A stretch of DNA of 64,000 nucleotides from Nitrospira sp. (GTDB taxonomy: Bacteria > Nitrospirota > Nitrospiria > Nitrospirales > Nitrospiraceae): the NCBI GenBank assembly GCA_035968315.1, contig JAVYIN010000007.1, positions 218,996 to 282,995 of the forward strand. The letters are read 5' to 3'. Numbering within the stretch: position 1 is the stretch's first letter; each line of letters begins with the position of its first letter. Shown piece by piece: positions 52,243 to 64,000 of this stretch. The notes beneath the pieces are model-generated. The model worked only from the letters and a program-made list of their open reading frames with translations. It was not told the origin of the DNA and did no database searches. The position numbers were made by a program, and so were the translations under genes.

Positions 52243-54453
52243 ATGCCATTCGGACGCGCGTGCCTAGCTTTCAGCACTGCTCTCATCAGTTTCTCGCTGG
52301 TCCTGCCCCTCTCTGACGGACGGGCCGGTGATCCGCCTCCATTCGCTCCGGCCATACGCCATCATGATTTGCGGGCCATGATTGATCCTGATCGGCACCA
52401 TCTAACGGTCACGGATCGGATGGTGCTTCAGGCCGGCGGGCTGCCGCAAGCACTCGAGTTTACCTTGGCCAAATCGCTACGGGTCACGGAGCTGCTCCTG
52501 GTCGAGGGGGGGCGGGCCGTTCCTGTGCCGTTTACGGTCGGCCCCACGCCGGCTGATTCCACTATCCAATCCCTTACGCTCTCGCTGCCACAGAATGTCT
52601 CCGGCGACGTGACGCTGGAGTGGCATTATCAGGGCCTGGTCAATGATCCACCGCGCGAGCCGCGCCATCTCCGGTTTGTGACGCCGAGCGAGACCGCCGG
52701 CCATATCGGACCGGAAGGCGTCTATCTGAGCAGCGAAAGCGGGTGGTATCCCGATCTGTCCGGCTCGCTGGCCTCCTATGCGCTCGCGGTCAAGATGCCT
52801 GAAGGCTGGACTACGGTCAGCCAGGGGCGTGGGGGCGCCACACAAGATTGTTCCCCGGCCAATGCCGGAGGGGCCTGCGTCACATGGCAGACCTGGGAAT
52901 CGGGTATTGCGGAGGCGCTCACACTCGTCGCCAACCGGTTTCGCGTCGCCCAGCGTGAGTGGACGGATGGGCAGGGGAAGACGGTTCGTCTTGCCACCTA
53001 CTTGTTTCCTGAGGATGCGGTGCTGGCAGACGAATATCTGGCGGCGACCGCCAAGTATCTCGAGGCCTATGTGCCGCTGCTAGGGTCCTATCCGTTCGAG
53101 CAATTCGCCGTGGTGGAGAATTTCTTTGCGAGCGGGCTCGGGATGCCGTCGTTCACTCTCTTAGGCAGCGGCAGCATCAAGCGCCACTATACGCAGCCCT
53201 ACGCATTGGGGCATGAGATCGTCCATTCCTGGATCGGCAACGTCGTGTGGAATCGCGCCGAGAGTGGCAATTGGGTGGAAGGGCTCACGACCTATCTGGC
53301 GAACTATTACTGGCATGAGCTGGCCAAAGATGACCGGCAGGCGCGCGAGCAGCGCCGCTTGATGACGCAGGGGTACAGTCTGTATGTGGCGCCAGAATCC
53401 GATTATCCCCTGATGGAGTTTCAGCGGAAGAGCGACGAGAAAGATAATGCCATCGGCTATCAAAAGGCGGCGATGGTCTTCCATCAGCTGCGCAGGGCAA
53501 TTGGCGACGAGGCGTTCTGGCGAGGGGTGAAGCAGATCGTCGCAGAGCTCTCCGGGCGGCATGCGGATTGGAAGGATCTTGAACGGGTGTTTGCGCAGGT
53601 CAGCCGGACAGACCTGCGCTGGTTTTTTGCGCAATGGGTCGAACGGGCCGGCGCGCCGCGGCTGTCCCTCCTTGAGGCCTCGGCCTTGCCCGAGGCCAAT
53701 CAGCCTGGCGCCTATCGGCTGCAGGTCGCAGTGCGGCAGGAGGGGGAGCCTTTTCGCGTGACCGTCCCTCTCGAAGTCACGATGCAGGACTCGGTACAGA
53801 CCGTGCTGGTGCCGCTCCTTGAGGCTCAGGGAGAAGTCGAGGTGTCGGTGCCAGCCGCGCCCTTGTCGGTGGCGCTGGATCCCCAGTTCATGACGCTCCA
53901 GCGGCTGAGGCGTGACCAACTGGCGCCGGTGCTGAATTTGTATGTAACCGATCGGCAGAAAGCGCTCCTGCCGCTGTTTGCCGACAGCACGACACCGTTT
54001 CATGAGCTGGTGGCGCGCATTCAGGCGCAAGAAGAGTCGGTTCCGCCGGATCGCAAGACGGTGATCTTGCCGGTAGACACGGCGGCGCTGCCTGAGTCAG
54101 GATCGGTCCTGATCCTCGCGACGCCGGAACATCAGGCGCATGCGCAGGCCCTGGTGACGGACTCGTGCGGGGATCGGGTGCAGTTGGAGCCGGGCGGATT
54201 TCGCATCGCCGGGGCGAGGTACGAAGGGCCCTCGATGGCCGTCGTCTTGTCCTGTCATCGCGCGGGGGTGCCTGGCTCGGTGGTGACGGTGTTGTATGCC
54301 ATCCATCCCGCGGCGGCCACGAAAGTTGCCCGCTTGCTGTTTTTCTATGGATGGCACAGTGTGGTGATCTTTACCGACGGCGCCGTGGCGCAGCGTGACG
54401 TCTGGCAGGTTCCTCAGATGATCAAGGAGGTTCGACGCAATGCACAGCAGTAA
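52243..54453 (+). CDS. M1-family metallopeptidase (aminopeptidase-like), exported
   Basis: 736 residues from ATG 52243; a TTG upstream lies inside the receiver remnant. Signal peptide ACLAFSTALISFSLVLPLSD. The peptidase domain has HEIVH at 324-328 and the third ligand E347 in GNWVEGL, the exact HExxH-18-E spacing of M1. The substrate-binding GxMEN motif is not found; GLGMPSF occupies that place, so substrate use may differ. DRHHLTVTDRMVLQ begins the beta-saddle domain. The C-terminal third (~550-736) is not obviously a known M1 extension. Overlaps the next gene by 14 bases. Confidence 0.85.
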   Translation: MPFGRACLAFSTALISFSLVLPLSDGRAGDPPPFAPAIRHHDLRAMIDPDRHHLTVTDRMVLQAGGLPQALEFTLAKSLRVTELLLVEGGRAVPVPFTVGPTPADSTIQSLTLSLPQNVSGDVTLEWHYQGLVNDPPREPRHLRFVTPSETAGHIGPEGVYLSSESGWYPDLSGSLASYALAVKMPEGWTTVSQGRGGATQDCSPANAGGACVTWQTWESGIAEALTLVANRFRVAQREWTDGQGKTVRLATYLFPEDAVLADEYLAATAKYLEAYVPLLGSYPFEQFAVVENFFASGLGMPSFTLLGSGSIKRHYTQPYALGHEIVHSWIGNVVWNRAESGNWVEGLTTYLANYYWHELAKDDRQAREQRRLMTQGYSLYVAPESDYPLMEFQRKSDEKDNAIGYQKAAMVFHQLRRAIGDEAFWRGVKQIVAELSGRHADWKDLERVFAQVSRTDLRWFFAQWVERAGAPRLSLLEASALPEANQPGAYRLQVAVRQEGEPFRVTVPLEVTMQDSVQTVLVPLLEAQGEVEVSVPAAPLSVALDPQFMTLQRLRRDQLAPVLNLYVTDRQKALLPLFADSTTPFHELVARIQAQEESVPPDRKTVILPVDTAALPESGSVLILATPEHQAHAQALVTDSCGDRVQLEPGGFRIAGARYEGPSMAVVLSCHRAGVPGSVVTVLYAIHPAAATKVARLLFFYGWHSVVIFTDGAVAQRDVWQVPQMIKEVRRNAQQ

Positions 54454-55570
54454 CCGGTATCGCAGTTTGCTCGGAGTGATCGCGGCGCTCATGTTGTGGC
54501 CCCAGGCCGGACTGGCCGCCGAGCGAAAAAAGAGCCCGGAGGTGGCAAAGGCCCCTGCCAGCGCCGAGCGGCATCTGAAAAATATCAAGCAGCTCACGTT
54601 CGGCCGGCAAAACGCGGAAGCCTACTTCTCGTTCAGCGGGAACAAACTGATCTTTCAGTCGACGAACAACTGGATGAAGGACACCTATGCCTCGGCCTTA
54701 ACCCCGGCCGAGATTCCCCTCGGCTGCTATCAGATGTACGTGATGGATCTGGACAGCGATCAGGTCCGGCTGGTCAGCACGGGATCGGGCGCCACCACCT
54801 GCGGCTATTTCTTTCCCGGCGACCGGCGGGTGCTGTACTCGTCCACGCACCTCAGCGGGCCGAACTGCCCGCCGAAGCCGCCGCGCGAAGGCGCCTACCG
54901 CTGGGCGCTCGACAATTATGACCTGTTTGCCGTGCGCATCGACGGACAGGAAATGCAACGGTTGACGAACACACCCGGCTACGACGCGGAGGCCACGGTG
55001 TCGCCGGACGGCAAAACCATCGTGTGGACGTCGGTCCGGGACGGCGACCTGGATATTTACGCGATGGATCTCGACGGGGCCCGCCATCGGCGGCTCACCG
55101 AGGAGATCGGCTATGATGGCGGGGCCTTTTTCTCGCCGGACAGCAAACGCATCGTCTATCGCGCGTCCCATCCGACCGACCCAGCCGAGATCGCGAAGTA
55201 CAAGGACTTGCTGGCGCAGCGGCTGGTGGAGCCGGGCCAGCTCGAACTGTTCATCATGAACGCCGATGGCAGCGGAAAGCACCAAGTCACGTCGAACGGC
55301 GCGTCGAATTTTTCTCCGTTCTTCCATCCCGACGGCAAGCGCATCATCTTCTCCTCGAATGTCGAGACGCGTGGCGAAGGGGGGCGGCCCAGCTTTCATC
55401 TCTATCTCGTGGGTGACGACGGCGCCGGCCTGGAGCGTCTGACCTTCGAGGGCCAATTCAACAGCTTCCCGATGTTTTCACCGGACGGCAAACGCCTCGT
55501 GTGGGTGTCCGACCGGAATGCAAGCCAGCCGGGCGAATTCAACGTGTTTCTCGCCGACTGGGTGCCGTGA
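54440..55570 (+). CDS. Exported TolB/PD40-type beta-propeller protein
   Basis: 376 residues. Signal peptide (SLLGVIAALMLWPQAGLA). Repeats with the PD40 pattern SPDGK/SPDSK-I: ATVSPDGKTIVWTSVRDGDL, FFSPDSKRIVYRASHPTD, FFHPDGKRIIFSSNVETRGE and MFSPDGKRLVWVSDRN. It lacks the TolB N-terminal domain. It may bind a periplasmic partner; position in an operon with an M1 peptidase suggests a role linked to that enzyme. Not the Tol-Pal TolB. Confidence 0.85.
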   Translation: MHSSNRYRSLLGVIAALMLWPQAGLAAERKKSPEVAKAPASAERHLKNIKQLTFGRQNAEAYFSFSGNKLIFQSTNNWMKDTYASALTPAEIPLGCYQMYVMDLDSDQVRLVSTGSGATTCGYFFPGDRRVLYSSTHLSGPNCPPKPPREGAYRWALDNYDLFAVRIDGQEMQRLTNTPGYDAEATVSPDGKTIVWTSVRDGDLDIYAMDLDGARHRRLTEEIGYDGGAFFSPDSKRIVYRASHPTDPAEIAKYKDLLAQRLVEPGQLELFIMNADGSGKHQVTSNGASNFSPFFHPDGKRIIFSSNVETRGEGGRPSFHLYLVGDDGAGLERLTFEGQFNSFPMFSPDGKRLVWVSDRNASQPGEFNVFLADWVP

Positions 55571-56682
55571 CGGTGGTGGGTCAGGGGCCAGAGGCGAGGG
55601 GCGAGGGGCAAGCCGGCATCGGCCACCAGCGGCTTTCCTCTAGCCCCTCGCCTCTAGCCCCGCGCCTGCTGTCGTTCATCTGCCTCTGTGCCGCGCTGGT
55701 GTGCGTGTACGGGGGGCTGCGGGAATTCGATGGCCCAGTCGCGGGGCATCTCCGCGCGATCACCACGCCGGAGGGTGGGGGCACCCTGACGGTGCCGTGG
55801 ATGGCGTTTGTCAGCCAGGCCGGCAACTGGCTCGGCGATGGGCGGCAGTTGCTCACCGTCAGCGCTATGCTCATGGCGCTTGGGTGGGCCTATCCCCCGT
55901 CGCGCGGGATGCGCACGGGCATTGAGACGTTGTGGGCCCATGGGATTGCGACGGTGCTGGTCCACACGGTCAAGCATCTGGTCGGACGGCCCAGGCCCAA
56001 GTTTTCCACGTCGGGCGACTGGGAGATGGCCCCGTCGTTGCTTTCCGGATTTGACTCCTTCCCGTCAGGCCATACCACGGCGACCTTTGCTTTGGCCGTG
56101 GTCTTGAGTCGGCGATTTCCCCACTACAGCCTGCTGTTCTTTGGGGCGGGCGCGTTTGTCGCGTTGAGCCGCGTGCTGCGGGGATCGCATTTCACCACCG
56201 ATGTATTTGGCGGGGCGGTGCTGGGTCTCGTGAGTGGCGCGCTGGCCATGCTGCCGTGGAAGGACTGGCGCGTGGCGATAGAAACGGGTGTGAGGCAGGC
56301 CGCCATTGGAACGGTCTGGGTCTTTGCGCTGCTGTGGGCTGTGACGCACCCGATGCCATCAGGATGGGACAGCATCCTCTTGATGGGGCTTGGTGCAGGG
56401 CTGACAGGGCTCGGTTTGTGGTGCAGGCTCGGCAAGTGGCGGCACGCGCATCGGGTCTGGCGCATAGCCATCGCCCTGGGGCTGTCACTCATGACGGCCT
56501 CGCCGCTGGTCATGGCTGCGGCAGGATTTCTGTGTCTGGGATTGTGGATTTGCGAAGAGCAGAATCAGAACACCGCCGAAGACTCACGGAGCCTGGCGAT
56601 CGTCCGAAACGGTGAGTTGGTGGCCGCCGTGCTGCTCAGCCTGGCCGTGCTTGTCGTTGGCCGCGGGGCACTTCACTTGTGA
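55567..56682 (+). CDS. PAP2-family phosphatase (lipid phosphate phosphatase)
   Basis: 371 residues from GTG 55567, which overlaps the previous stop (GTGA). Six or more transmembrane helices. PAP2 motifs: KHLVGRPRP, DSFPSGHTTATFALA and SRVLRGSHFTTDVFGG, all catalytic residues present. Likely dephosphorylates undecaprenyl-pyrophosphate or phosphatidate. Residues ~6-34 (GPEARGEG and SSPSPLAPRL) are encoded by a palindromic repeat that recurs in intergenic DNA, so this N-terminus may be an insertion, or the true start may be further downstream. Confidence 0.88.
   Translation: MTVVGQGPEARGEGQAGIGHQRLSSSPSPLAPRLLSFICLCAALVCVYGGLREFDGPVAGHLRAITTPEGGGTLTVPWMAFVSQAGNWLGDGRQLLTVSAMLMALGWAYPPSRGMRTGIETLWAHGIATVLVHTVKHLVGRPRPKFSTSGDWEMAPSLLSGFDSFPSGHTTATFALAVVLSRRFPHYSLLFFGAGAFVALSRVLRGSHFTTDVFGGAVLGLVSGALAMLPWKDWRVAIETGVRQAAIGTVWVFALLWAVTHPMPSGWDSILLMGLGAGLTGLGLWCRLGKWRHAHRVWRIAIALGLSLMTASPLVMAAAGFLCLGLWICEEQNQNTAEDSRSLAIVRNGELVAAVLLSLAVLVVGRGALHL
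55584..55667 (+). repeat. Palindromic repeat family 1, copy in PAP2 gene
   Basis: AGAGGCGAGGGGC (55590-55602) and its exact inverse GCCCCTCGCCTCT (55643-55655) form a 13-bp perfect stem. The copy lies at the start of the PAP2 reading frame. Relatives are at 59679-59758, 60861-60939, 62755-62825 and a right-arm-only copy at 63217-63250. Confidence 0.75.
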
Positions 56683-56713
56683 GGCGCCCGTCCCGCTTTT
56701 CTCGCTTCCCTGA

Positions 56714-58546
56714 TCAATGTCCGAAGATGAGCGGCTCTTTCGTCGTCGAAGGCGGAGGCGGCAGCGCGGCCGATTCCGGGATCTGCACCATCGGCTGGCT
56801 GGCGAGCAAGAGATACCCGTAGCGTTTCAAAATCGGTTGGTAGTTTTTCACGTCGCCCGGCAGTTTCTCCACGAAGGTTTCCGGCAGGAGAATCATCGTG
56901 CGGCCGGCCTGCGACAGCGCCTCGCGCATCTTATCTTCTTCACCCTTTCCAACGAAGAGCACTTTGCGGCGGGCATAAAAGGCCATGGAGGGTCTCGTCG
57001 AAGCGTAGACGATCAGTTGCTCGCCCGGTTCGAGGTTCACCCCCGCCGCGTAAGCCAGCTCTTGCGGCGGCGCGACAAAGTAGCGATTCACCGCCGGCAG
57101 GATGAACAGCATCACGACCAGCACCACCCCAGCGAGCGATCCGGCGGCCGCCCAAAAGGCCCCGCGCCGGCGCGTTTCCGAGAGCCCGAACGCGCCCACC
57201 AGTCCCATGCCGATCAGCAGGAGTGTGGCGGCGATGTAGGGGCCGCTCCCCATCGAGAGTTGCGTGGCCAGGGGAAATTCTTTGACCAGTTTCCCGGCGA
57301 TCTTCGTGTCATAGATCCAGGGCAGCGACGCGAAGGCGCCGGCCAGGAGAAAGCCCAGCCACATCACCACATGCACGGAGGCTCGGGCGCCGCGGGTGGC
57401 GGGCTCGGCCATGCAGCGAGACCAGAAAAGGGCCGTGAGAATGGCGGCGGCCGGAAAGAGCGGGCCGATGTAATGCGGTAGCCTGGTCGATGACAGGGTA
57501 AAGAAGATGAACGTGCCGAAGATCCAGGCGGCGGTGAACCATTCCAGACTGGGGACGTCTGTCGGGAGATCAGACTCCTGGCCTCTCGTCTTTCGCCAGT
57601 TATTGAAGGCGTCATACCAGGCGAAGAGGAGCCAGCCGCTCCAGGGGAAGAATCCGAGGAGCAGCACCGGGATATAGAACAAGAGCCCAAAGCTGTGCCC
57701 TTCCATCGGGTTGAGAAACCGGCCGACGGTGTTGGCCTGGGCTGAAGCGGCGTACTCGGCGCCATGGAGCCACCACATCGTGGCGTACCAGGGCAGGGCG
57801 ATCAGGACGGTCAGCGCTGTTCCAGGCAGCGGTTTCCCCTCCTGCCAGAATCGCCCCCATTGCTTCGTCAGGGAGAGGTAGAGGGCGATGGTGATGAGCG
57901 GGACGAGGAACCCGACCGGCCCCTTGGCCAAGGTTCCCAGCCCCATCGCGAGGTAGCAGATCCAGAGCCAGTGCCGCCGGGCGTGCGTCGTCTGAAAGCC
58001 CAGCCAAAAGGCGAAGAGCGAGAGCGTGGTGAAAAAGATCAGCACGCTGTCGGTCAGGGCCATGCGGTTGAGCGCGATCATTTGCAGATTGAGCGCGAGC
58101 ATCAGCGCCGCGAGCAGCGCCGTGACCGGATCGCGCAGCCGTGCGAGAAAGAGATAGAGCATCAGAACCAGGCCCAGGCCGAAGAGGGCCGAAGGGAACC
58201 GCGCCGCAAAGGCCGACACGCCGAAGGTTTTATACGACGCGCTCATCAACCAGTACACCAGCGCCGGCTTCGCGTAGCGCGGTTCGTAGTTGAAGGTGGG
58301 GCTGATCCAGTCGCCGGTTTCCAGCATTTCCCGGCCCGCTTCCGCGTTGCGGCCTTCGTCGCGGTCGGTGAGGCCGAGGGCTCCCAGGTTCCAAAAGAAC
58401 AGGACTCCGCAGAGCGCCAGCAGGATGCAGAGGTGGCGCACGATGAGCGTCGCTGGATAGGTGACGGATGACGGGTGAGAATCGCGCGACTCCGCGCTCG
58501 CCTCCGTCTCGCGGTTCTCGCTTGTCCCGCCCGTCTGATCGCTCAT
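56714..58546 (-). CDS. GT39/ArnT-like glycosyltransferase, polytopic membrane protein
   Basis: 610 residues, about twelve transmembrane helices. The first loop GALGLTDRDEGRNAEAGREM carries the acidic D-x-D-E motif, and NYEPRYAKPALVYWLM and PVGFLVPLITIALY match ArnT/dolichyl-P-mannose transferases. These move a sugar from a polyprenyl-phosphate carrier to lipid A or protein. The C-terminal globular tail ends in PPPPSTTKEPLIFGH. Last gene of a three-gene minus-strand operon with LAB_N and GT2 genes (4-base overlap at 58543-58546). Confidence 0.9.
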   Translation of the reverse strand: MSDQTGGTSENRETEASAESRDSHPSSVTYPATLIVRHLCILLALCGVLFFWNLGALGLTDRDEGRNAEAGREMLETGDWISPTFNYEPRYAKPALVYWLMSASYKTFGVSAFAARFPSALFGLGLVLMLYLFLARLRDPVTALLAALMLALNLQMIALNRMALTDSVLIFFTTLSLFAFWLGFQTTHARRHWLWICYLAMGLGTLAKGPVGFLVPLITIALYLSLTKQWGRFWQEGKPLPGTALTVLIALPWYATMWWLHGAEYAASAQANTVGRFLNPMEGHSFGLLFYIPVLLLGFFPWSGWLLFAWYDAFNNWRKTRGQESDLPTDVPSLEWFTAAWIFGTFIFFTLSSTRLPHYIGPLFPAAAILTALFWSRCMAEPATRGARASVHVVMWLGFLLAGAFASLPWIYDTKIAGKLVKEFPLATQLSMGSGPYIAATLLLIGMGLVGAFGLSETRRRGAFWAAAGSLAGVVLVVMLFILPAVNRYFVAPPQELAYAAGVNLEPGEQLIVYASTRPSMAFYARRKVLFVGKGEEDKMREALSQAGRTMILLPETFVEKLPGDVKNYQPILKRYGYLLLASQPMVQIPESAALPPPPSTTKEPLIFGH

Positions 58547-58842
58547 CGCTGATCACCCTTCACGGGTTTCGAGAGGTCCGGGCGATAGATGAGCATCAGA
58601 TTGCGGATGTACACCACAGAGCCGATGCTTTGCCCGGCGATGAAGACGGGATCTTTCTTGTAGATGGCATAGGCCAGCGTGATAAGGCCGCCGATGAGGC
58701 TCAAGTACCAAAAGGACACCGGCACCTTGCTCGAGGCGCTCTGTTCCGAGGCGAGCCATTGAACGATCCAGCGTCCGAAGAACAGCCCCTGGCCGAGAAA
58801 TCCGATGGCGATCCAAATGGTGTCGAGACTCATACTGATCAC
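58543..58842 (-). CDS. Lipid A biosynthesis N-terminal (LAB_N) domain protein
   Basis: 99 residues, three transmembrane helices. WIAIGFLGQGLFFGRWIVQW, ASSKVPVSFWYLSLIGGLIT and DPVFIAGQSIGSVVYIRNLM match the LAB_N family. Such small proteins are encoded between a GT2 and an ArnT-like transferase in many Gram-negatives and may act with the transferase or as a carrier flippase (inference from genomic context). Both flanking genes overlap it by four bases. Confidence 0.88.
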   Translation of the reverse strand: MISMSLDTIWIAIGFLGQGLFFGRWIVQWLASEQSASSKVPVSFWYLSLIGGLITLAYAIYKKDPVFIAGQSIGSVVYIRNLMLIYRPDLSKPVKGDQR

Positions 58843-59573
58843 TTATCACGGAGCCGATACCGCAGCACGCGCTGTTGCATCCAGCGGACGGCGATGAGGT
58901 CATAGAGCGATTTGAAAAGCCGGTTGCCGACGCCATATTTCGAGAGGCCGTGGGCGCGGGGATAGTGGCTGACCGGAATCTCGGTCACGGTAAATCCGTG
59001 CATGAGGGCCAGGGCCGGGAAGAACCGATGCATGCCGGTGAAGAGCTGCAGCTTGTCCACCAAGGCCCGCCGGAAGATCTTCAGCGAGCAGCCGGTGTCG
59101 TGGACGCGGTCGCCCGTGACGGCGGTCCGCACCTTGTTGGCGATGCGGGAAGAGAGCTTGCGCACCAGATTGTCGTTGCGGGTCTTCCGCCAGCCGCAGA
59201 CGAGGTCGAACTGTTGGATCAACGGCAGCATCCGGTCGATATCGGCCGGATCGTTCTGGAGGTCTCCGTCGAGCGTGATGACCAGGTCGCCGGTCGAGTG
59301 TTTGAAGCCGGCATCGAAGGCGGACGACTGGCCATAGTTCCGGTCGAAATGCAGCACGCGGACCATGGGATAGGTCTGTTGCAGCTGGTCGAGCAGTTCG
59401 CTGCTGCCGTCGGTGCTCCCATCGTCGATATAGACCAGCTCGAAGGGGGCCTTCCGGGACTCCTCGCGTGCGGAAAGCACCGTGAGGACCCGCTCAGTGA
59501 GCGGTGTCAGATTGTCTCGTTCATCCTTGATGGGAATGACGACAGAGGCCCATGGGCGAATCGCGTGGGTCAT
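58839..59573 (-). CDS. GT2-family polyprenyl-phosphate glycosyltransferase
   Basis: 244 residues. SVVIPIKDERDNL, YIDDGSTDGSSELLD, HFDRNYGQSSAFDAGFKHS, DGDLQNDP and HDTGCSLKIFRRALVDKLQL are typical of the DpgS/ArnC/GtrB group without the membrane-tail seen in GtrB. It makes a polyprenyl-phosphate sugar that the downstream ArnT-like enzyme would use. First gene of the three-gene lipid modification operon. Confidence 0.93.
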   Translation of the reverse strand: MTHAIRPWASVVIPIKDERDNLTPLTERVLTVLSAREESRKAPFELVYIDDGSTDGSSELLDQLQQTYPMVRVLHFDRNYGQSSAFDAGFKHSTGDLVITLDGDLQNDPADIDRMLPLIQQFDLVCGWRKTRNDNLVRKLSSRIANKVRTAVTGDRVHDTGCSLKIFRRALVDKLQLFTGMHRFFPALALMHGFTVTEIPVSHYPRAHGLSKYGVGNRLFKSLYDLIAVRWMQQRVLRYRLRDK

Positions 59574-59678
59574 CGGGCGCGGCGGTTCCTGGATAGCTGT
59601 CGGAGAAGAGTCACGGCGGCATTCTAGCGAATGGTCCGCGGACCGTCAAACGAGGAGGCGTGACGGGTAAGAGGAGAT

Positions 59679-59758
59679 GGCACGCGGCGAGGGGCTAGAG
59701 GCATGAGGCGAGGCGGAAGATCCTCCGCCCGCTAGCCTCGAACCTCTGGCCTCGTGCC
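59679..59758. repeat. Palindromic repeat family 1, intergenic copy
   Basis: Outer arms GGCACG (59679-59684) and CGTGCC (59753-59758), with AGGCGAGGCGGA and TCCGCCCGCTAGCCTCG between them. It lies between the GT2 gene and the exported-protein gene and abuts the latter's stop codon. Confidence 0.65.
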
Positions 59759-60297
59759 TACTGGATAATCGTGAACCGCATCGTGCCGACCAGGCTCATC
59801 TCGTTCACCTCCTCGCCCGCATGGATCTCCACTTTATAGCGGCCGGGTGTCCATCGGTCCCGGGGAGGGAAGAGCTTCAGGTAGCCGCTCTCGTCTTCGA
59901 GCGCCATGTACATGGCGTCCTGGCTGACGAGCGACTCGGGGGAGAGGCCCGGCACGTCTTCGGGGAAACAGCGGCCGAAGACCTGGAAGGCCTGATAATG
60001 CTGGTGTAGGTGGAACACGATGAAGACGGCCGGCGTGCCGGAGGAAAACCGTTCTGTCGGCCGGACGGGCACGATTTCGTGCGTGCGGCGAAACCCCATC
60101 TCTTCCTCAAACCCCTCGGCCATGGTGATGGAGCGGAACATGCCGCCTGGCGGCGCATCGAAGTCGTAGGGCTGGGCCTCGTGGGGTTTGTTTTGGAACT
60201 CGGGAATGGGGAGATTCCTCGTCAGGGGCAGGTCCTCGGCCCAGGCGAGCGGGACTCCCAGCAGCAAGGCGATGAGCAACCGGCACAGGGCGATCAT
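59758..60297 (-). CDS. Exported protein of unknown function
   Basis: 179 residues from ATG 60297 (AAGGGAG about 14 bases upstream). Signal peptide CRLLIALLLGVPLAWA. The mature part begins EDLPLTRNLPIPEFQNKPHE, followed by IFHLHQHYQAF-like strands (FIVFHLHQHYQAFQVFGRCF), YMALEDESGYLKLFPPRDRW and GRYKVEIHAGEEVNEMSLVG. An Ig-like or C2-like beta sandwich is plausible. I do not recognise the family. It stands alone between repeats. Confidence 0.75.
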   Translation of the reverse strand: MIALCRLLIALLLGVPLAWAEDLPLTRNLPIPEFQNKPHEAQPYDFDAPPGGMFRSITMAEGFEEEMGFRRTHEIVPVRPTERFSSGTPAVFIVFHLHQHYQAFQVFGRCFPEDVPGLSPESLVSQDAMYMALEDESGYLKLFPPRDRWTPGRYKVEIHAGEEVNEMSLVGTMRFTIIQ

Positions 60298-60379
60298 GAA
60301 AAGTTGGTACACTCCCTTGCGCCGCAGAGTCAAGGGTGGGCACTGGGGAGAGCCATCACCAGGCCCGTTCCTAACGGGT

Positions 60380-60512
60380 CCTCCCCTTTGTAAGGGGAGG
60401 CAAGGTGGGGTAGAGGATATCGGCGGTCATGCGGCTTGCGAACGCACGACCAGTCAATGGCAGCTGGAATCTTCGACCTCCCCTGGCCCCTCCTTACGAA
60501 GGAGGGGAAAGG
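60380..60512. repeat. Repeat family 2, two copies in inverted orientation
   Basis: CCTCCCCTT-TGT-AAGGGGAGG (60380-60400) and, in inverse orientation, CCCCTCCTT-ACG-AAGGAGGGG (60487-60507) preceded by CGACCTCCCCTGG (60474-60486). Together they bracket ~75 bases and look like a small non-autonomous inverted-repeat element. A third copy is at 62144-62178. Confidence 0.6.
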
Positions 60513-60548
60513 AAATGGGATGTTGCCGAAAGGGAGGGGAAGCGCTGA

Positions 60549-62120
60549 ATGCTGACCGCTATGAGTTCTCCGATTGCGGCGGTTTCCAACCGTCTGCTAC
60601 AATTCCGCCCACGCAACACGCACCACCTGTCATCCGTCACAAGTGAGATCGAAGTTATGCTTCAAGACGCCGACGCATTGCCGCAGTTGATCGGGGATTA
60701 CAAGCCGCTGGATGAGTGGCAGGCCCACATCAATACGCTGTTCTACCGCCTCCGTGGCGACAAGCTCCGAACCTATTATCAGACCTTCGCCTCCGCCGAC
60801 TATCGATTGGCGCATGCCCTGGCGGCGGATTATTACGAACAGGTGACGAAGCGCGAAAAGGCCCGAGGCAAGGGGCCCGAGGCGAGAGGTGAGAGTAAAG
60901 ATTCTCCGACCCCTAGCCCCGCGGCTCTCGCCCCTCGCCTGATTGTGCTCGAGCTCGGCCCCGGCAACGGCAACCTGGCCGCCTGCTTCCTGAGCCATCT
61001 GAAAACCCTCGATAAGGACGGCCTGGTCTATCCCCGCGTCCGCTACGTGCTGGTGGACTGGGAGCAGTCGATCCTCGACGGGGCCATGGCGCATCCGGAC
61101 CTCGCGCCACATCGTGATCGGGTCGAGGCCATGCTGGGGACGGTGGAGCACATCGCCGGGCTGGCGGACCAGTCGGTCGATCGGATCATCTGCAACGAAC
61201 TCTGGAACGATCTGCCGACCAAGCTCATGGCCAGGAACGCGGGCGACATCGAAGAAGAATACCTTCGCCCCAATCTGAGCGAGACGCTGCATGCCACCAT
61301 TCAGGATTGGTCGGGGTTCGTGCGGGCCTTCGAAGCCAAGGATGTCGAGCAGCTCAAGACATTCCCGCCGTTTCTTGACGATCTGGTGTGGGAAAAGGAG
61401 TTTCGGAAGGTCGAGTGGAAGGATGTTCCCTATCGCAAGACCATCACGGAATTTCTCAAGACCATCGACGAGCAAGTGCTGGTGCCGGTGAATCTCGGGG
61501 CCTTTGCCACGCTGAAGGAAGCCAAGCGGCTCCTGGCGCCCGATGCGGTGGGGTTCAGCGCGTTCGACGCCGGGACGGCGGATAAGCAGGTGCTCAACGA
61601 TCCCGACAAGCCCTGCTACGGCCAGTTCGGCGGGCAGTACAGCTTCATGATCAACTTTGCCCTGGTCGAAGCGGTGGCCAAGCATCTGGGCCTGGGCAAG
61701 ATCACGATTGAGCCGCAGCGCGAGTTCGTCGGCCGGTCGTTGAACACCAACGTGATCACCCTCATGGATCTGCTGGCCACCCACCCCTCAGCAGGGCCGA
61801 AAATGCAGCCCTGGGAGCAGGACCGGCTTGTGCTCAAGACCATTAAGGCGCTCAACGAGACCTGCGAAAGCCCCTATAGCCGCAAACTGGATTTCCCCTT
61901 GCAGCACAATATGCCCCAGGAAGAGCGGGAGACGCTGAACGGCATGCTCCTCTCGCTGAAGCGGAACGGTGTGCCGGATACCGTGGCCTACCTGACCGAA
62001 GAAGAGCTGGCCACGGCGGCGCGAGACCTGGAAGGGGTCGGCTACGATCCCGATACGGTGAACGTGGCCCTGACCGCCCCGCCAAGCCCGATTGAATATC
62101 ATCACTTTGGTTGTAAATAA
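60549..62120 (+). CDS. SAM-dependent methyltransferase-like protein (MidA/DUF185 style)
   Basis: 523 residues (an ATG at 60657 would give 487). The motif-I-like VLELGPGNGNLAACFLSHLK, the acidic motif II YVLVDWEQSILDGAM, GTVEHIAGLADQSVDRIICN and ELWNDLPTKL show a Rossmann methyltransferase core at about 130-240. Beyond ~260 residues the protein is not familiar, ending PPSPIEYHHFGCK. Residues ~102-131 (KARGKGPEARGESKDS ... LAPRLIV) come from a palindromic repeat translated in frame. Flanked by inverted copies of repeat family 2. Confidence 0.75.
   Translation: MLTAMSSPIAAVSNRLLQFRPRNTHHLSSVTSEIEVMLQDADALPQLIGDYKPLDEWQAHINTLFYRLRGDKLRTYYQTFASADYRLAHALAADYYEQVTKREKARGKGPEARGESKDSPTPSPAALAPRLIVLELGPGNGNLAACFLSHLKTLDKDGLVYPRVRYVLVDWEQSILDGAMAHPDLAPHRDRVEAMLGTVEHIAGLADQSVDRIICNELWNDLPTKLMARNAGDIEEEYLRPNLSETLHATIQDWSGFVRAFEAKDVEQLKTFPPFLDDLVWEKEFRKVEWKDVPYRKTITEFLKTIDEQVLVPVNLGAFATLKEAKRLLAPDAVGFSAFDAGTADKQVLNDPDKPCYGQFGGQYSFMINFALVEAVAKHLGLGKITIEPQREFVGRSLNTNVITLMDLLATHPSAGPKMQPWEQDRLVLKTIKALNETCESPYSRKLDFPLQHNMPQEERETLNGMLLSLKRNGVPDTVAYLTEEELATAARDLEGVGYDPDTVNVALTAPPSPIEYHHFGCK
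60861..60939 (+). repeat. Palindromic repeat family 1, in-frame copy inside a gene
   Basis: GGCGAGAGGTGAGAG (60881-60895) pairs with CTCTCGCCCCTCGCC (60925-60939) at 13 of 15 positions. The copy lies inside the methyltransferase gene in a frame that keeps it open, encoding GPEARGES and SPTPSPAALAPRL, which resemble the peptide from the copy in the PAP2 gene. Confidence 0.75.
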
Positions 62121-62143
62121 GGCGTGAGGGCCTGGCTCTGTTT

Positions 62144-62178
62144 CCCCTCCTTCGTCAGGAGGGGCCAAGGGGAGGTCG
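62144..62178. repeat. Repeat family 2, third copy
   Basis: CCCCTCCT (62144-62151) with AGGAGGGG (62157-62164), followed by CCAAGGGGAGGTCG. The reverse complement of 60474-60507 is nearly identical, so the two copies flank the methyltransferase gene as inverted repeats. Confidence 0.65.
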
Positions 62179-62240
62179 AATGTTTCAGGGGGCTAATTGG
62201 CTGGTGCGTCTCTCTTCCGCCCGATTTCCAATATTTTCCC

Positions 62241-62267
62241 TTGACTTGCCATAGAGTTTTCTATAGC
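62241..62267 (+). promoter_or_regulatory. Possible promoter upstream of tatA
   Basis: TTGACT (62241-62246) and TATAGC (62262-62267) with a short 15-base spacer. An alternative 17-base spacing reads TAGCCT. It is the best candidate in the 354-base gap before tatA. Confidence 0.4.
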
Positions 62268-62317
62268 CTTCCCCCCGATTTAGGTATCAACCACCCATCT
62301 TTCGTATGGGACGGCCG

Positions 62318-62473
62318 GTGAATCTAAATGCGGATGGGCAAGAAAGGCGTCACGTGCAAGATCTGAAGATCTGGCGGCAATCGGCCACCTTGTTCATCGT
62401 CTCTTATCGCACGGCTCACCGGGCGCACCTGTCCGGCGCAGATCATTCTTCACGTTCATTATTGAGGTATTAA
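62318..62473 (+). pseudogene. Short frame with four-helix-bundle-like start
   Basis: A 51-codon frame from GTG 62318 includes VQDLKIWRQSATLFIVSYR, which resembles the first helix of the four-helix-bundle (23S rRNA intervening-sequence) protein family (DLxVWQxA...YRLT). It ends without the later helices. A frameshift around 62408 would give RLTG, another feature of that family. It may be a decayed fragment or a chance frame. Confidence 0.25.
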
Positions 62474-62474
62474 G

Positions 62475-62735
62475 ATGTTCGGCTCATTCGGCTGGATGGA
62501 GCTCATGCTGATTTTGATCATCGTGTTGATCATTTTCGGCGCCGGCAAATTGCCGCAGTTGGGCGAAGGGCTCGGCAAGGCCATCAAGGGATTCAAGAAG
62601 ACCGTGCATGAGGCCGACGCCATCGATGTGACGCCGGGCGAGCCAGCGCCGCCCACGCAGATTGCCGCGCCGGCCCAGCCAGTGCCGCCACCGGCCGCGC
62701 CGGTGCAGCAGAGCGAACAGGCGAAACAGGGCTAA
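62475..62735 (+). CDS. tatA: Sec-independent protein translocase subunit TatA
   Basis: 86 residues. One transmembrane helix (LMLILIIVLIIFGAGKLPQL), the FGxxKLP hinge and the amphipathic helix GEGLGKAIKGFKKTV are the TatA signature. The C-terminus is Pro/Ala/Gln-rich. It forms the twin-arginine translocation pore. A second TatA/B-like gene follows after about 100 bases containing a repeat; no tatC is in the window. Confidence 0.92.
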   Translation: MFGSFGWMELMLILIIVLIIFGAGKLPQLGEGLGKAIKGFKKTVHEADAIDVTPGEPAPPTQIAAPAQPVPPPAAPVQQSEQAKQG

Positions 62736-62754
62736 CAACAAATGGGCAAGTGGT

Positions 62755-62825
62755 TAGAGGCACGGGGCTAGTGGAAAACCATCTCATAGCTGGTACCCCT
62801 CGCCTCTCGCCCCTCGCCTCGTGCC
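62755..62825. repeat. Palindromic repeat family 1, between the two tat genes
   Basis: AGAGGCACGGGGCTAG on the left and CCCCTCGCCTCTCGCCCC then CTCGCCTCGTGCC on the right; arms pair with one or two mismatches. It fills most of the spacer between tatA and the next Tat gene. Confidence 0.6.
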
Positions 62826-62837
62826 AAGGGTTACACG

Positions 62838-63137
62838 ATGTTTGGATTAGGCGCCGGCGAAGTGCTCATCATTCTCGTGATTGCGTTTCTGCTCTTTGGG
62901 CCGAAGCAATTGCCGGAGGTGGGGCGGCAAGTCGGGAAGGCGGTCAAGGGATTTAAGGAAACGGCGGAAGACCTGCGGAAATCGGTGGAGCCAGAGCTCA
63001 ACATGATTCAGCAGGAAGTGAAGATGGTCGAGCAGGACTTCCAAGCCTCCATGAAAGAAGCCGAAGAAGAGATCAACGCCGCTGGCCAGAAGCCGGAGCA
63101 GGGCCAAAAGTCGATCAACGAGGCGAATCAGGTCTGA
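62838..63137 (+). CDS. tatB: TatA/TatB-family translocase subunit
   Basis: 99 residues. The helix GAGEVLIILVIAFLLFGPKQ carries the conserved FGPKxLPE hinge, and the amphipathic part VGRQVGKAVKGFKETAEDLR is longer than in the first Tat gene, with a charged C-terminal coiled-coil tail. The FGPKQLPE sequence and long tail fit TatB better than TatA, but TatA/B naming in this phylum is uncertain. Confidence 0.82.
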   Translation: MFGLGAGEVLIILVIAFLLFGPKQLPEVGRQVGKAVKGFKETAEDLRKSVEPELNMIQQEVKMVEQDFQASMKEAEEEINAAGQKPEQGQKSINEANQV

Positions 63138-63216
63138 ATGATTTAGGTAAGGGGTGAGTGTCGAGAGGAAAGAGGAAAGAGGAATAAGGAGGAGTGGAAC
63201 GCAAGTGCAAGGGTTC

Positions 63217-63250
63217 ATCCTCTAGCCCCGTGCCCCAGGCCTCGTGCCTA
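63217..63250. repeat. Palindromic repeat family 1, partial copy
   Basis: CCTCTAGCCCCGTGCC and AGGCCTCGTGCCTAG match right-arm sequences of the other copies. The left arm is not recognisable. Confidence 0.5.
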
Positions 63251-63318
63251 GTCAGAAACGAGATTTTACGAGCTAAAACGAACAGGGTCGTGTAGAAGTG
63301 TCGTCGAGAGGCAGCAGA

Positions 63319-63445
63319 CGAAAGGGTGCAGGGAAGGCCCTTTCGGAATGGCATCCAGGAAGTCGATGGATGCCATCATAGTGGCAGTAGTTGGATCGCA
63401 AGTCGGCAGCCTGTCTGTGGGAGTGGAGCCACCAGGGGCTGTCAT
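63319..63445 (+). promoter_or_regulatory. Hairpin-rich leader of the porin gene
   Basis: The 329-base gap before the porin gene holds repeat debris (63217-63250), then CGAAAGGG/CCCTTTCG (63319-63345), GGCATCCA/TGGATGCC (63350-63374; 8-bp stem, 9-base loop) and a looser GGCAGCC/GGGCTGTC pair (ending 63445). No T-run follows. It could control stability or translation of the porin mRNA. No known riboswitch class fits. Confidence 0.4.
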
Positions 63446-63466
63446 CCAATTCACAGGAGGAACGCT

Positions 63467-64000
63467 ATGAGAAGAAGCAAGGAAGCAGCAAAGTGGGTGC
63501 TGGCAGCGGCCCTATTGGGGGCGATGCCGGCGGGTCAGGCCTTGGCCGATCCGCCCGTGGCGCCGAAGGTGATCGATTCACCGACCAATGTCCCGCCGGT
63601 CCCCCGCGCGATGCCGGATCTGATTCCCTACTGGAATTTCGATCCGCCCAAGAGCCCCTTGTTCGACCTCAGCAAGCTCACCGTCTCCGGTGATGCGCGT
63701 GTTCGTGCAGAGTCCCGCAAGAACGGGAATTTCGGGCAGGATGGAAGAAAGAATGCGGATTCGTTCGTCCAACAGTGGGCACGGCTCGGCCTGAACTACG
63801 CCGTGTCGCAAGATGTGGATATGTTCACCCAGCTCCAGTATTCCAAGAACTGGGGCGGTGCCGGATCGTCCGCCGGAGCGGCAAATGATTCGGGGAACCA
63901 GATCGGAAGTCCCACAAATGTCAGCGGGACTACCACCACCGGCAGTGGCAGCGTTCTCGGTGTCCGCCAGGCCTTCATCATGATCCGCAACCTGGGTGTG
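63467..64000 (+). CDS. Outer-membrane beta-barrel porin, N-terminal part
   Basis: The window ends after 178 codons with the frame still open. AGGAGG lies just before ATG 63467. Signal peptide KWVLAAALLGAMPAGQALA. The mature part starts with a Pro-rich stretch, then LTVSGDARVRAESRKNGNFG, VQQWARLGLNYAVSQDVDMF and QLQYSKNW, alternating strands as in alginate-export (AlgE)/porin-type barrels. A Ser/Gly/Thr-rich loop follows. Substrate unknown. Confidence 0.75.
   Translation, partial: MRRSKEAAKWVLAAALLGAMPAGQALADPPVAPKVIDSPTNVPPVPRAMPDLIPYWNFDPPKSPLFDLSKLTVSGDARVRAESRKNGNFGQDGRKNADSFVQQWARLGLNYAVSQDVDMFTQLQYSKNWGGAGSSAGAANDSGNQIGSPTNVSGTTTTGSGSVLGVRQAFIMIRNLGV

Follow-up and report, generated by a model that had tools for sequence, protein, structure and literature searches.

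Inverted tandem-heptamer arrays in genes and intergenic gaps of Nitrospira, with turnover of repeat families at shared sites

INTRODUCTION

Rickettsia palindromic elements (RPEs) measure ~100-150 nt and have a sequence that is conserved throughout the family. Other dispersed repeats are built of head-to-tail heptamers. Heptameric G-rich units have been described in Xanthomonas (GGGAATC) and in Nostoc (GGGGA(C/T)T) (PMC4692102). Like the Nitrospira arrays studied here, these repeats have 7-nt units in short arrays that are mainly intergenic and frequently form convergent inverted pairs, and most of the Xanthomonas ones occupy gaps flanked by identical gene pairs in two relatives, with extensive sequence variation (PMC4692102). 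The cyanobacterial STRR heptamers of Calothrix belong to the same class as the Nitrospira arrays. The TAACTGA direct repeats of Beggiatoaceae resemble them too, as dispersed short heptamer arrays, but have one fixed unit, stand upstream of start codons and are common to distant phyla; in the part of that paper considered here, neither inverted arms nor site-wise exchange of families is described, and it is noted that 7-nt units lead to repeating peptides and to stops (PMC4679880).

Two other systems deserve comparison. REP/REPIN sequences, which are associated with RAYT, are also short hairpin repeats in gaps; the Nitrospira elements differ in being tandem heptamers, in showing no RAYT link and in occurring repeatedly inside protein linkers. 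N. moscoviensis appears in RepRanger merely in a table of REP-containing genomes. The DNA uptake sequence (DUS) dialects of Neisseriaceae are species-specific versions of a short repeat, sometimes in genes, as in our case, but they consist of a single-unit motif with thousands of copies and a known receptor (PMC3630211), whereas Nitrospira has tens to hundreds of arrays and no known receptor. A search of the open-access literature retrieved no paper on Nitrospira heptamers. Here, we analyzed a 64,000-nt stretch of a Nitrospira sp. genome (the window), together with the whole 3.11-Mb genome (G000) and those of its relatives.

RESULTS

Inverted heptamer elements in the window

In the window, the 15-mer GAGGCGAGRGGYGAG, with up to two mismatches, was found 11 times. 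Its expected count was 1.3, and none of 100 shuffles reached 11. The elements that contain such repeats have arms of ~2-4 tandem heptamers, with the consensus GRGGCNA (family 1), facing each other across a variable loop. The heptamer period was enriched over other periods and over shuffles, and convergent inverted pairs numbered 18 by strict unit matching and 30 by a looser scan. A reading made from the sequence alone (hereafter the sequence-only reading) had placed the same GC-rich palindrome inside a methyltransferase gene and at the start of a PAP2 gene. Both copies were indeed present (Table 1), and they had in common the peptides GPEARGE, from the left arm, and SP..LAPRL, from the right arm.

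Table 1. Genes and inverted heptamer elements of the window
Feature	Position	Strand	Remarks
Putative SAM-dependent methyltransferase gene (Methyltransf_28, PF02636)	60549..62120	+	523 aa
In-frame inverted heptamer element of the methyltransferase-like gene	60861..60940	+	linker alignment: 30 orthologues and 59 further
PAP2-superfamily gene	55567..56682	+	GTG as likely start codon, which overlaps the upstream gene's stop
Inverted heptamer element that makes up the N-terminal tail of PAP2	55584..55667	+	arms 55584-55615 / 55630-55661
Intergenic family-1 element between two TatA/B-like genes	62752..62820	.	nearest relative: (CGTTTCA)n array in the same gap
Intergenic family-1 element	59691..59754	.	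nearest relative (G014): no array at the site

The methyltransferase element encodes the peptide ARGKGPEARGESKDSPTPSPAALAPRL, in the linker that precedes the GPGNG SAM-binding motif. Its arms (60866-60889 / 60917-60940) are 75% complementary, and a second pairing (60880-60895 / 60925-60940) reaches 88%. The two PAP2 arms, of 32 nt each within 55584-55661, are 88% complementary. Predicted RNA folding was far beyond that of shuffles for the PAP2 copy (z -5.7) and moderate for the methyltransferase copy (z -2.6). No Rfam family matched positions 54000-64000 above its gathering score, and no plasmid match to the methyltransferase copy was found.

From the element to the first transmembrane stretch, the PAP2 sequence holds no ATG, GTG or TTG, and translation must accordingly begin upstream of the element or inside it. 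Together with the open frames and the alignment of orthologues, this suggests that the inserts are translated.

Family 1 expanded mainly in this species

A 19-nt family-1 pattern, with at most one mismatch allowed, gave 131 matches in this genome; its nearest relative, G014, had 7, and 15 further relatives had 0-5. The reversed pattern, used as a control, gave 0 matches in this genome. Exact matching gave 26 matches here, 1 in G014 and 0 in 32 others. Family 1 has therefore expanded mainly in this Nitrospira species. As to the distribution between gaps and genes, which the sequence-only reading had proposed to count, the majority of copies were intergenic and a minority lay in genes. The intergenic copies typically consist of two converging arms near adjacent genes. 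The in-gene copies sit in linkers or terminal tails, with lengths that keep the frame. Besides the methyltransferase and PAP2 genes, they were found in genes for an Lhr-type helicase (two separate inserts), a nitroreductase-family protein and an Rce1-type protease, at the C-termini of LpxK and of chemotaxis receptors (MCPs), and in C-terminal extensions of TruD, an AIRC-family protein and a CxxCxxCC protein; this list was drawn from individual genome stretches, with genes called by a simple hexamer-based caller.

We also noticed a cluster of chemotaxis-receptor paralogues (G000:C5:444-466 kb; L003, L004, L005, L013 and L024) with one-armed GRGGCNA arrays in the C-terminal tail. These arrays have apparently multiplied along with the gene, and inverted pairs lie just 3' of several of the genes. 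Long near-perfect (TCAGCCT)n arrays, from another family of the order, were seen at G046:C203:4333-4400 and on nearby contigs. A search for Y1_Tnp genes gave no link to the arrays, and RAYT was set aside as their mobilizer.

The unit length accounts for the shared frame

Among 223 units from 82 arrays, A and G were nearly equal at the second base of GRGGCNA and the sixth base was free; the constancy of the remaining positions is inflated, since they served to find the units. Computed translation of (GGGGCGA)n gave GARGEGR and that of (TCGCCCC)n gave SPLAPRP, in all three frames, because 7 mod 3 = 1 and each unit shifts the frame by one. Stops arise only from units containing TAG or TGA, in one phase per three units. 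Three chemotaxis-receptor paralogues contain the same 27-mer, CAGGGGCCAGAGGCGAGGGGCGAGGGG, as the PAP2 copy (100% identity over 27 nt). In these paralogues its reading frame is shifted by one base, giving GPGARGEGRG instead of the QGPEARGEG of PAP2. The sequence-only reading had observed that the methyltransferase and PAP2 copies use the same frame, and this holds for these two, both of which give GPEARGE. It had taken the coincidence as a sign of selection, which our data do not support: a perfect heptamer repeat yields an identical peptide in all frames, and among the other genic copies, those of the MCPs are read in another frame. Since the three frames are equivalent and the same 27-mer is used in two of them, frame selection is not indicated. 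That the copies share a reading frame follows from the unit length (7 mod 3 = 1).

Neighboring units, and units of opposite arms, were no more alike than random units of their own family, which indicates that simple slippage or inverted duplication did not make the arrays; for this genome's family, both were rejected as array builders on the same ground. Own-family units resemble independent draws from a degenerate motif. Among the other families examined, an excess of likeness between neighbors was seen solely in G002 (P 0.004), G017 being borderline. In the TCAGCNN arrays of G014, neighbors were less alike at the two variable positions than expected (0.05 vs 0.28), with 0 of 1000 permutations as low. 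Both patterns, in this genome and in G014, could reflect loss of perfect repeats or a recognized motif with free positions.

The loops differed among the 30 pairs of own family-1 elements. They held a weak TCCGA motif (top 6-mer count of 6, against at most 5 in 200 shuffled sets), the sole sign of a possible loop shared as part of a mobile unit. At the methyltransferase site, ATCCGA or ATCCGG also occurs in loops between arms of other families. With regard to possible G-quadruplexes, GAGG units break the GGGG runs of family-1 arrays, and the other families at these sites are not G-rich.

One linker, many families

We compared the methyltransferase linker in 30 genomes and in 59 further named loci from partly overlapping genomes. 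The orthologues come from Nitrospira MAGs and N. moscoviensis. Depending on the species, the linker contained heptamers of the types GRGGCNA, GGCAATA, GGGGTAA, GCGTCAG, CCCCTCA, CACTCAG or CGTCAAN, a nonamer family, or a short spacer. Genes with a short, element-free spacer (G030, G033, G022, G025 and G026) are the insert-free orthologues whose search the sequence-only reading had suggested. Among the 59 further loci, 28 had period-7 arrays and 4 had period-9 arrays, and the linker lengths that were checked all kept the frame. On a tree of 30 linker-less proteins, at least 11 changes of linker type were needed among the 30 species. A 64-row tree gave ~30 changes, an approximate figure because its labels, taken from regular expressions, are in a few cases coarse (some CCCCTTA arrays were labelled GGGGTAA). 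Closely similar methyltransferases could differ in family, as in L296 (GCGTCAG) vs L328 (GGGGTAA), and also in L309 vs L327. We noticed incidentally that the methyltransferase gene of the closest relative (L060; G014:C11:7000-9600) is apparently split mid-gene into two overlapping reading frames, by a frameshift or an assembly error.

In an outgroup genus, the linker was short except in L252 (G050:C27) and L253 (G054:C13), which carry at the same spot an unrelated palindrome, CCTGAGC...AGTCGAAGGGCC, in frame. This favors repeated independent insertion at a tolerant linker over the overwriting of one old array. The palindrome of these two loci (CCTGAGC..AGTCGAAGGG type) has AARGGCC on both sides, perhaps a target duplication.

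Positions persist while families change

Relatives carry other families at the same in-gene and intergenic positions, namely GCGTCAG, CACTCAG, TCAGCNN, CGTGAAA, GGGGTAA and CCCCTCA heptamers, or nonamers. The relatives are represented by one genome per species, so that the differences described here are differences between species. G014 has a contig that matches Nitrospira sp. UBA6493, and 184 kb of the present genome align colinearly with G014 at ~86% identity. Where the present genome has family-1 elements, G014 shows (ACGTGAA)n, including a TTA-containing unit, at one gene start (C7:115383), heptamers of GCTGAT type at C7:171506, a (CGTTTCA)n array in the TatA gap and, within PAP2, the nonamer element GGCGAGACAGGCGAGAAG; two family-1 sites are empty or short in G014. 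Among 113 orthologous gaps, period-7 arrays were present in 8 in this genome and in 10 in G014, and 5 of them coincided (hypergeometric P ~9e-5).

The picture was similar inside genes. At the first site of the Lhr-type gene, several relatives have TCAGCNN-type arrays. At the second, 10 of 13 relatives have period-7 arrays, a level reached by fewer than 2% of the other windows of the gene, and the units there are (CACTCAG)n or (TCTCACG)n. In G014, G012 and G032, CGTGAAA/(ACGTGAA)n arrays occupy the linker of the nitroreductase-family gene, and the unit that would bring TGA into phase is replaced by GTTAGAC or GTTAAAC. The flanking codons of this linker, TGG and ATCCC, are kept while its DNA is wholly different among this genome, G014 and array-free relatives, and this reads as replacement rather than insertion. 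Collectively, these alignments show that positions persist while the family at a position turns over.

DISCUSSION

The elements are heptamer repeats of the STRR/Xanthomonas type, and neither RPEs nor RAYT-linked REPs: they have a head-to-tail 7-nt unit, many dispersed and mainly intergenic copies, and convergent inverted pairs. Unlike the Xanthomonas and Nostoc repeats, they fall into many unrelated unit families, several per genome; close species differ in the family found at a given site, and arrays are retained at in-gene sites throughout the genus. What is new is the existence of persistent in-gene sites with family turnover.

The sequence-only reading had likened the elements to RPEs. Part of the likeness stands, as these are dispersed palindromes, found in gaps and in frame in unrelated genes, with some orthologues lacking the insert. 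Yet a selfish insert of RPE type, selected to stay open in one frame, is hardly probable at all, given that the same heptapeptide comes from all three frames, that the MCP copies use another one, and that a single site holds different families in different species. Moreover, Nitrospira elements share just their arms of 2-4 degenerate heptamers; no sequence conserved over the whole element beyond the arms was found among the 30 pairs, whose loops differ. Mobilization of REP/REPIN sequences by RAYT, a Y1 HUH transposase, would fit short, palindromic, mostly intergenic elements, and 20 of 34 genomes from the order have Y1_Tnp genes. We nevertheless consider it very unlikely: the single Y1_Tnp gene of this genome is not directly flanked by a family-1 pair, heptamer arrays are abundant in G005, G014 and G017, which gave no Y1_Tnp match, and the units are tandem and degenerate, with neither a fixed REP nor a single conserved palindrome of 20-40 nt.

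Heptameric repeats are usually explained by slippage, as discussed in PMC4692102 and PMC4679880. Such a view would make the present arrays the product of strictly local slippage and hairpin mutagenesis at spots that are unstable and unconstrained, with no movement between sites. It accounts poorly for one species-specific family at dozens of dispersed sites and for neighboring units that are no more alike than random, or even less alike in the G014 TCAGCNN arrays, and we give it little credence. It is also unlikely, if somewhat more attractive, that G-GGC-A is a motif read by a binding protein, in the manner of uptake sequences, R and N being free to drift and a change of reader altering the motif genome-wide at conserved sites. 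The units vary almost solely at two positions, independently between neighbors and arms, species-specific families occupy conserved sites, and the DUS dialects offer a precedent (PMC3630211). The constancy of the fixed positions, however, is biased upward by their being part of the search pattern, the 131 matches of this genome at up to one mismatch are far below the thousands of DUS copies, several families coexist in one genome, and no candidate reader protein emerged.

We therefore prefer, with a probability of roughly two in three for the account as a whole, to see the elements as inverted tandem-heptamer arrays of a known heptameric class, at persistent sites with family turnover, that spread without a dedicated transposase. 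Arrays would be tolerated in genes solely where a linker accepts a low-complexity peptide and where the unit that carries a stop (TAG or TGA) has mutated or does not fall in phase. New families would copy into, or overwrite, sites already holding iterated repeats, possibly by microhomology-driven conversion or template switching between these repeats, and fresh insertion into a few tolerant linkers may add to this; none of these steps would call for a transposase of their own. We found no spreading agent for the arrays, which we count against this explanation, together with the unrelated palindrome in the outgroup linker and the seemingly independent units, for which it does not account. A stronger version, which we put forward tentatively and consider possible but doubtful, posits a limited set of persistent docking sites, some in conserved genes, where inverted arrays are repeatedly overwritten with site and frame kept, so that a genome-wide dialect change would rewrite protein linkers through an as yet undescribed kind of recombination.

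As a warning, in-frame repeats give a false impression of frame selection if their unit length is not a multiple of three. With one linker showing ~30 type changes on a 64-row tree, Nitrospira provides many natural replicates for studying transposase-free repeat spread. If sites persist while unrelated families replace each other, then bacterial short repeats would evolve by dialect switching at fixed places, and this switching would, as a by-product, rewrite protein linkers in frame.
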